Shown here: in pieces, positions 21,976 to 30,430 of the stretch | Layout of the letters: the number at the start of each line of letters is the position of its first letter | Numbering within the stretch: position 1 is the stretch's first letter | From: Thermoanaerobaculia bacterium | Lineage (GTDB): Bacteria > Acidobacteriota > Thermoanaerobaculia > UBA5066 > DATFVB01 | Direction: 5' to 3' | DNA length: 36,848 nucleotides | Assembly (NCBI GenBank): GCA_035260525.1 | Contig: DATFVB010000272.1 | Coordinates: 1-36,848 of the forward strand | Notes under the pieces: model-generated | The model's input: only the letters and a program-made list of their open reading frames with translations | Told to the model about the DNA's origin: nothing | The model's database searches: none | Translations under genes and position numbers: made by a program

Positions 21976-22007
21976 CCTCCCCCCCGTCCGGCCAAAATGG
22001 CGTCGTC

Positions 22008-22093: not shown

Positions 22094-22115
22094 TGAGCAT
22101 TACGGCTCATATAAT
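22094..22115 (+). promoter_or_regulatory. Promoter and candidate operator of the DGQHR gene
   Basis: A perfect TATAAT (22110-22115) stands in an unusually AT-rich island. The inverted repeat TGAGC-N6-GCTCA (22094-22109) abuts it, where a repressor would block RNA polymerase. No good -35 was found at 16-18 bases. The predicted leader is about 20 bases and contains GGAGG. Confidence 0.55.
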
Positions 22116-22131
22116 TCCGGCAGTCGAAAAT

Positions 22132-22136
22132 GGAGG
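22132..22136 (+). promoter_or_regulatory. Shine-Dalgarno of the DGQHR gene
   Basis: GGAGG 4 bases before ATG 22141, the strongest ribosome-binding site in the window; it fixes this start. Confidence 0.75.
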
Positions 22137-22140
22137 TCGA

Positions 22141-23271
22141 ATGAGCTCTCTGGCCGCACTCCGGCTGAATCAATTCGGAGTACGTTTCTATGAGGTTCTC
22201 CTCTCCGGCGTGGACGTCCAGAAAATCGTTCATTTCGAGGTTCTGAACTACAGCGCCAACGACCGGCCGACGCTCGGCGGGGCCCGCCGGAAGTCGAAGG
22301 GACTGGTGAACTGGGAGTTCCTGGAGAAGAAGATCTCCGCTTCGGGCGAGGCGTTCCAGCGGCCGATCATCGAGCGGAAGATCAACGAGCTCGTCAACTA
22401 CTACCTGCAGTGCGCCGAGTCGGGGACCCTGCCGGCGATCCCCGGGAGCGTGCTCCTGGTGAGCGACCGCCGGCTCGAATACACGCCTTCCCGGGACAAT
22501 TCCGACCTCGGGACGGTCAAGCTTCCGGATCAGCCCGGCACCATGCGCGCCCTCGACGGCCAGCACCGGCTGCTCGCGCTCCACCAGCTCGCCGAGAAGC
22601 ACAACCTGACCGACTTCCAGGTGCCGGCGGTCGTGTTCGATTCGCTGACGGCGGACCAGGTGGTCGAGCTCTTCGTCACGATCAACAGCAAGCACACGAA
22701 GTTGAATCCCTCGCACCTCATCTCGCTCGCGGGACGCCGGCTCTACCGCGACGAGAACCTCGCGGCGTCGCACGACGTGATCCGCGGGTTGAACGAGGAC
22801 GAGCACTCGCCGCTCCACGGCCAGATCAAGGTCCTGGGCGTCGGGAAGGGGACCGTCACGCAGGCGTCGCTCGCCGACGAGCTCCGCGACGTCTTCGCCG
22901 CGATGGCGGCGGCGGGGCCGCGCACCTCGAAGGAGTTCCGGGAGAACGCGAAGAGATTCTTCCTGAACTACTTCAAGGCGATCGAGAAGGTGTTCCCGAA
23001 GGCCTTCGCGTCGCGAAAATATTCGATCAAGACCGGCATCGCGTTGCGCGCGTTCCTCCGCGTCTCGCCGCACGTGATCGCGATGATCCGCCACCGCGGC
23101 GGCGACCTCTGGTCGGCGGGCGAGCTCCACGCCGCGCTGCTGCCGTGGGCGGAGTCGATCGGCGACGCTCGCTTCGAGACCGATCAGCTCTGGAAGCAGA
23201 GGGCGGCCGGGGGAACGCGGTCGACCGTAGAAGTGCTCGTCAGGGAGCTCAAGCAGGGCCTTCTGGTCTAG
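22141..23271 (+). CDS. Orphan DndB-like DGQHR-domain protein
   Basis: A 376-residue protein with the name-giving motif of the DGQHR domain (ALDGQHRLLAL, motif at 139-143) and the associated VELFVTINSKHTKLNPSHLISL. The family includes DndB/DptB, the regulator linked to DNA phosphorothioation, and many stand-alone proteins of unknown role. The C-terminal half is helical (ENAKRFFLNYFKAIEKVFP, TGIALRAFLRVSPHVIAMI). No dndA, C, D or E and no restriction gene is in the window. It forms a one-gene unit with a strong promoter, an operator-like inverted repeat and an excellent ribosome-binding site, unlike its neighbours. A DNA-binding or defence-related role is possible by family, not shown. Confidence 0.85.
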   Translation: MSSLAALRLNQFGVRFYEVLLSGVDVQKIVHFEVLNYSANDRPTLGGARRKSKGLVNWEFLEKKISASGEAFQRPIIERKINELVNYYLQCAESGTLPAIPGSVLLVSDRRLEYTPSRDNSDLGTVKLPDQPGTMRALDGQHRLLALHQLAEKHNLTDFQVPAVVFDSLTADQVVELFVTINSKHTKLNPSHLISLAGRRLYRDENLAASHDVIRGLNEDEHSPLHGQIKVLGVGKGTVTQASLADELRDVFAAMAAAGPRTSKEFRENAKRFFLNYFKAIEKVFPKAFASRKYSIKTGIALRAFLRVSPHVIAMIRHRGGDLWSAGELHAALLPWAESIGDARFETDQLWKQRAAGGTRSTVEVLVRELKQGLLV

Positions 23272-23284
23272 CTCCCGAGACGCG

Positions 23285-23400
23285 CGGTTATACGGGTCCG
23301 TGCGGCCGGCCGCCGGCACGACGTACGCTGCCGGTACGCCTTAGCCGCCGGCAGTCCGCCCGAACCCGTCTTCCCGCACGTCTCGCTTCGCCTCGTCGTC
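23285..23400. repeat. Dispersed intergenic repeat, copy A
   Basis: It lies in the 354-bp gap between convergent DGQHR and gdhA genes. The core hairpin CGTAC-GCTGCCG-GTACG is at 23322-23338, flanked by outward GCCGGC/GCCGGC arms. The 5' part (TTATACGGGTCCGTGCGG) resembles copy B, and the 3' part (CTTCCCG...TCTCGCTTCGCC) resembles copies C and D. The rest of the gap (23401-23625) holds no gene I can support. Confidence 0.65.
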
Positions 23401-27081: not shown

Positions 27082-27299
27082 CGATGCATCGAGCCGGGCG
27101 GGCGCGTGCCGCCCGCCCGCGGCGCTCGCCGTACGCCGCCGGTACGACTCGGCCGCGGGCCGGGCGACCCGCATCCCGTCCGCCTTCGCCAAGGCTACGG
27201 CGGATCTGCGACACACTTCCGCTGACGCTTCGACGGAAATAGGGAGCGATTCATCCGCCATAGCTCGTGAGAGCGGCGGCGGACCGGGCTCGCGCCTCG
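27082..27299. repeat. Dispersed intergenic repeat, copy D with extra hairpin segment
   Basis: The modules are CGATGCATCGAGCCGG (27082-27097), GGCGCGTGCCGCCC (27101-27114), the hairpin CGTAC-GCCGCCG-GTACG (27130-27146) inside longer GC arms, CGACCCGCATCCCGTC (27165-27180) and GGGCTCGCGCCTCG (27286-27299). About 105 bp (27181-27285) separate the last two, which are adjacent in copy E. This accounts for most of the 339-bp gap; I see no gene in it. Confidence 0.75.
27181..27285. repeat. Candidate inserted segment with three hairpins
   Basis: Hairpins: CCGCC...GGCGG (27180-27203, with inner GCC-AA-GGC), TTCCG...CGGAA (27217-27238) and the nested CCGCC-ATA-GCTC-GTGA-GAGC-GGCGG (27255-27279). The segment interrupts modules that are contiguous in copy E. 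It could be a small non-autonomous element. Confidence 0.5.
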
Positions 27300-30326: not shown

Positions 30327-30331
30327 CGGCC

Positions 30332-30430
30332 GTTATACGCGCCCGTCGGGCCCGGCCGCGCTCAACGTACGCTCTCGGTACGCCTCGCGCGCGGGCCGGA
30401 TTCGAGATCGCCCGGTCCGCCTTTCACCGA
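30332..30430. repeat. Dispersed intergenic repeat, copy B
   Basis: TTATACGCGCCCGT at the 5' side resembles copy A. The hairpin CGTAC-GCTCTCG-GTACG (30366-30382) is followed by GCC as in copies A and C, and GC-rich outer arms (GGCCCGGCCGCG and CGCGCGGGCCGG) pair imperfectly. It occupies the gap before proS. Confidence 0.65.

Follow-up and report, generated by a model that had tools for sequence, protein, structure and literature searches.

In the papers cited here, DGQHR/DndB proteins are discussed as components of phosphorothioation defence, and DndB is described as having an operator in its own promoter, the palindrome TACG-N10-CGTA (PMC4507180). The QR, DGQHR-type and FxxxN motifs of the domain have been described, together with a proposal that the related DGQQR motif binds nucleotides (PMC4619093), and binding of ATP and GTP has been shown for a DndB-like protein (PMC12704722). 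Other described relatives are DpdB, the N-terminal domain of GmrS/DUF262, which belongs to the ParB/Srx superfamily and carries a DGQ(Q/H)R motif, and orphan proteins with a ParB-CTPase fold, for which the surveying paper stresses mobile elements as a frequent home (PMC12704722). Among the titles, abstracts and selected passages searched, none dealt with a solitary DGQHR subfamily. Here, we analyse such a gene in a 36,848-nucleotide stretch of a Thermoanaerobaculia genome (hereafter, the window).

Domain assignment and orphan status

The DGQHR gene lies where the initial annotation had placed it (Table 1). A mechanical list of open reading frames opens the frame further upstream, at 21997, and the N-termini of the orthologues favour the ATG given here. 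The protein passes the TIGR03187 profile of the DGQHR domain (126.2 bits for a cut-off of 58.85) and the Pfam DndB profile PF14072 (55 bits, cut-off 29.1), both of which are also matched by all 32 aligned orthologues. It fails the DndB equivalog TIGR03233 (24.8 bits, cut-off 328), the DpdB family NF041060 (54.8 bits, cut-off 300) and TIGR04172, DGQHR_dnd_1 (47.6 bits, cut-off 450), and the PADLOC model of DndB gives it 26 bits, against 520–529 bits for true DndB proteins from the same phylum. Judged by these profile scores, the protein is DndB-like by domain and is not DndB, DpdB or DGQHR_dnd_1. With DndB/DptB it shares the domain, a comparable length and the QR and FxxxN motifs, but it differs in its equivalog score, in the genome in which it resides and in its promoter (see below). 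The likeness to DpdB comes down to the DGQHR domain and a weak match below the family cut-off, and that to GmrS/DUF262 to superfamily, motif and a partial PF03235 match of 21.9 bits, under the cut-off of 33.2; the window protein does not have the HNH nuclease part, and a domain search found no nuclease domain in it. Searches of the PDB by sequence returned nothing related, whether started from the single protein or from a profile.

The initial annotation had further claimed that the gene stands alone, and this was borne out: neither DndC nor DndD gave a match at E ≤ 0.001 in the window genome, which is 98% complete, or in four relatives bearing an orthologue. DpdA gave no match at the same threshold in these five genomes and ten further carriers, that is, in the window genome and 14 others. 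In another Acidobacteriota class, where 78 of 126 genomes carry an orthologue, DndC exceeded its cut-off in five genomes, all of them non-carriers (Fisher p 0.007, a value that overstates the case as the genomes are related by descent). By these searches, the gene is an orphan with respect to DndC, DndD and DpdA.

The motifs of the domain are found at Q73-R74, at residues 139–143 (DGQHR) and at F178-xxx-N182. They are invariant in the 32 orthologues, and remain invariant or nearly so when distant DGQHR proteins are included. A first structure model, with only orthologues in the alignment, reached a pLDDT of 64; a second AlphaFold model, for which distant DGQHR proteins were added, reached a mean pLDDT of 74 and a pTM of 0.55. 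Among solved structures, the best matches of this model were weak, namely the N-domain of a pNOB8-like ParB (E 0.04) and, lower, the ParB-like PadC (probability 0.89); TM-scores were low and no PDB match attained E ≤ 0.001. Viral proteins of the DndB-like, GmrSD-N and ParB/sulfiredoxin kinds matched the model more clearly. From these weak model matches and the named relatives, a ParB/Srx-type fold is tentatively suggested for the N-terminal part.

Table 1. Features of the DGQHR locus, in positions of the window
Feature	Position	Strand	Remarks
TGAGC-ATTACG-GCTCA inverted repeat, earlier proposed operator	22094..22109		exact; unconserved, within chance
29-base block, starting one base ahead of TATAAT and reaching into the Shine-Dalgarno sequence	22109..22137	+	identical in sister species
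TATAAT, -10 box	22110..22115	+	same in sister species
GGAGG ribosome-binding site	22132..22136	+	ATG 4 bases on; kept in sister species
Gene for DGQHR-domain protein	22141..23271	+	376 aa; ATG at 22141 backed by orthologue N-termini
DGQHR codons, residues 139–143	22555..22569	+	putative nucleotide-binding motif
Very conserved block, residues 176–192 (ELFVTINSKHTKLNPSH)	22666..22716	+	contains FxxxN (178–182)
C-terminal helical part, residues 231–376	22831..23268	+	computed pI ~10.3; putative nucleic-acid-binding part
Dispersed, imperfectly palindromic repeat, ~120 bp	23276..23399		adjoins the gene, outside it

Distribution, selection and genomic setting

A scan with the window protein alone matched only two contigs, from Acidobacteria metagenome-assembled genomes of the same order. 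When 396 genomes of the phylum were scored, no orthologue fell below 428 bits and no other DGQHR protein exceeded 123, a gap of more than 300 bits. Within the class of the window, an orthologue is present in five of 149 genomes, which are both genomes of family f1 and all three of family f3. The remaining family identified in the order, f2, has no orthologue in any of its 14 genomes. In the other class, it is carried by 78 of 126 genomes, nearly always as one copy. The tree sets the orthologues apart from other DGQHR proteins, and every family represented by at least two rows forms one group in it, with support that is not always strong. On the scores and the tree, we consider the orthologues a separate, mostly single-copy subfamily. 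The pattern fits mainly vertical inheritance with losses, and transfer between the two classes may have occurred. Over long times the gene is dispensable, since f2 and the greater part of its own class do not have it and it seems to be broken in two genomes (G509 and G492). Between the window genome and its sister species, its dN/dS is 0.041, the lowest of ten genes in the window region (the nine others range from 0.06 to 0.20, the next being 0.059), a value that indicates strong purifying selection.

The surroundings of the gene are not those of a defence locus, as the initial annotation had noted, and the survey of homologue neighbourhoods that it had proposed extends this to other carriers. 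In the window genus, a purine nucleoside phosphorylase lies upstream and a Glu/Leu-type dehydrogenase downstream; in f3, the neighbours are LemA and an M48 peptidase; in the other class, they include FTR1, an HGSNAT-type membrane acyltransferase, LamB/YcsF, an AMP-ligase, ArgJ and OTC. Epimerase, M14 and PD40 genes also appear, depending on the family. Most neighbours are thus metabolic, none of those examined is defence-like (genes in these loci being called by a simple script and not by a gene finder), and no constant neighbour points to a pathway. The neighbour set changes from family to family and the gaps are mostly wide, so that most carriers probably transcribe the gene by itself; where f3 has gaps of 49–68 bases, it may be co-transcribed with LemA. 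Some neighbours are on the opposite strand.

The dispersed repeat reported downstream of the gene is present as well, with 58 matches genome-wide when the copy next to the gene is counted. Some copies form arrays with a spacing of about 205 bp, partial copies occur in the window at 27099–27180 and 30329–30385, and Rfam recognized no family anywhere in the window, the repeat included. In the sister species, there is no clear copy at the site, and the intergenic gap measures 208 bases versus 354. Other DGQHR loci were also observed. The conjugative plasmid pNL1 holds a radical SAM gene and a gene for an ATP-binding protein flanked by two DGQHR-domain genes, an arrangement suggestive of a distinct system of several genes. 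In genome G050, from the class of the window, two remote DGQHR-like matches are separated by about 4 kb and lie among genes whose third-position GC is below that of some surroundings; this region is possibly an island.

These data bear on the idea, raised in the initial annotation, of a stand-alone protein for defence or DNA sensing, which would detect modified or foreign DNA and act by itself, for example by nucleotide degradation, a solo action that has been suggested for proteins of the ParB superfamily involved in conflicts. As a rule, defence genes are mobile, occur in clusters and have a patchy distribution. The gene is indeed patchy at the level of order and class, and DndB, GmrSD and SspE, of the same superfamily, are linked to defence (PMC10853773, PMC4619093, PMC11662687). 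Against this stand the mostly single copy, the tree groups that coincide with families, the household neighbours, the very low dN/dS and the lack of a recognizable nuclease domain. Moreover, the plasmid, phage and viral-contig collections searched contained no close relative, the best identity being about 23–26%. A defence role is therefore left unsupported by these data and we judge it unlikely, a weaker reading than a household role. The protein may act alone as a sensor of DNA or of nucleotides.

The neighbours could also be taken as a hint that the protein serves amino-acid or 5-oxoproline metabolism as a regulator or an enzyme. LamB/YcsF, of the 5-oxoprolinase subunit A type, lies downstream in two families, a gene for oxoprolinase/hydantoinase A does so in another, and a Glu-type dehydrogenase follows the gene in the window genus. 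We regard this link as improbable given the turnover of neighbours, the gaps and the orientations described above. The two 5-oxoprolinase-like types found downstream, LamB/YcsF and hydantoinase/oxoprolinase A, are unrelated to each other.

Promoter architecture and origin of the gene

The perfect TATAAT, the GGAGG and the exact inverted repeat TGAGC-N6-GCTCA are all present as first noted (Table 1). The repeat had been proposed as an operator for autoregulation, which would make the protein a repressor of its own gene, in the manner of DndB and TACG-N10-CGTA. Its position just upstream of the -10 box is compatible with such a role, as is the binding of DndB to palindromes in its own promoter (PMC4507180); the sister species, too, has a repeat with 5-bp arms at nearly the same place. 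However, that repeat is of a different sequence, TCGGC-N7-GCCGA, and its 5' arm is displaced by one base, although the two proteins are 96% identical and the adjacent -10 box and leader are kept. TGAGC-N6-GCTCA is missing from the promoters of the other orthologues among 33 upstream regions, an outcome that the initial annotation had itself named as speaking against its reading, and the operator of DndB was not found in the promoter of the window gene with one mismatch allowed.

Chance can account for the repeat. With up to one mismatch, 0.90 occurrences are expected per window and at least one was seen in 63 of 100 shuffles, a lenient test given that the real repeat is exact. When the 60 bases preceding the ATG were shuffled, 23% of the shuffles contained some repeat with 5-bp arms. 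Over the 33 orthologous upstream regions, one of them only 7 bases long, 20 inverted repeats with 5-bp arms were observed against 20.3 from shuffles. The full pattern of repeat plus TATAAT occurs once in the whole genome. The claim that the repeat exceeds chance did not hold, and the operator reading was rejected on the sister promoter, which does not have the repeat sequence, and on the count over the 33 promoters. Self-repression through TGAGC-N6-GCTCA thus appears very improbable.

In the other class, many orthologues share a promoter with TTGAG-N17/18-TACAAT or a similar sequence (TAnnnT), often after an A-rich stretch, an arrangement that is absent from the window promoter. The fifth position is G in 19 of 19 such matches and in none of the 11 promoter-like matches that precede other genes in these loci, which is an observation and not a test, the 19 promoters being related by descent.

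Least credible is that the gene is a drifting relic left behind by the loss of a Dnd or Dpd system, since although other families of the phylum have Dnd genes, several with a true DndB, a dN/dS of 0.04 disfavours drift and the subfamily lies far from true DndB, with DndC in none of the 78 carriers of the other class.

A proposed role on the chromosome

We propose, with a probability of about one half, that the gene is a household gene of some Acidobacteriota lineages and that its product is most likely a nucleotide-dependent DNA-binding switch on the chromosome. A household role is probable because this is a strongly conserved, stand-alone chromosomal gene of several Acidobacteriota groups, and the searches revealed no corresponding defence system in them. 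The N-terminal ParB/Srx-type (DGQHR) fold would probably use the DGQHR, QR and FxxxN motifs to bind a nucleoside triphosphate, and the basic, helical C-terminal part would probably contact DNA or RNA. The protein would be expressed from the gene's own promoter, would work without Dnd, Dpd or fixed partners encoded by its neighbours, and would act on chromosomal DNA, in transcription or chromosome upkeep. Triphosphate binding, nucleic-acid binding, the household role and the process served are what we infer, the two binding activities from the structure matches, the basic C-terminal part and the ATP and GTP binding of the DndB-like protein mentioned above.

The predicted ParB-like fold and the lack of a visible ParA-type partner beside the window gene recall the orphan ParB-CTPase-fold proteins (PMC12704722); in contrast to that survey's emphasis on mobile elements, the window subfamily is chromosomal, conserved and found among metabolic genes. 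A bolder formulation, that these are lineage-conserved ParB-fold nucleotide switches of Acidobacteriota, which act on the chromosome and take part neither in ParABS segregation nor in DNA-modification defence, is doubtful at present.

Genome annotation would file the window protein under phosphorothioation defence. By itself, a DndB-type match does not point to a defence system, because it may come, as here, from a chromosomal subfamily that is strongly constrained, is present mostly once per genome and occurs where DndC is not detected. With a single gene involved, this subfamily is a simple setting in which to ask about the function of the DGQHR fold on its own. If the bolder formulation is true, the fold would have been domesticated as, or would originally have been, a household DNA-binding switch.
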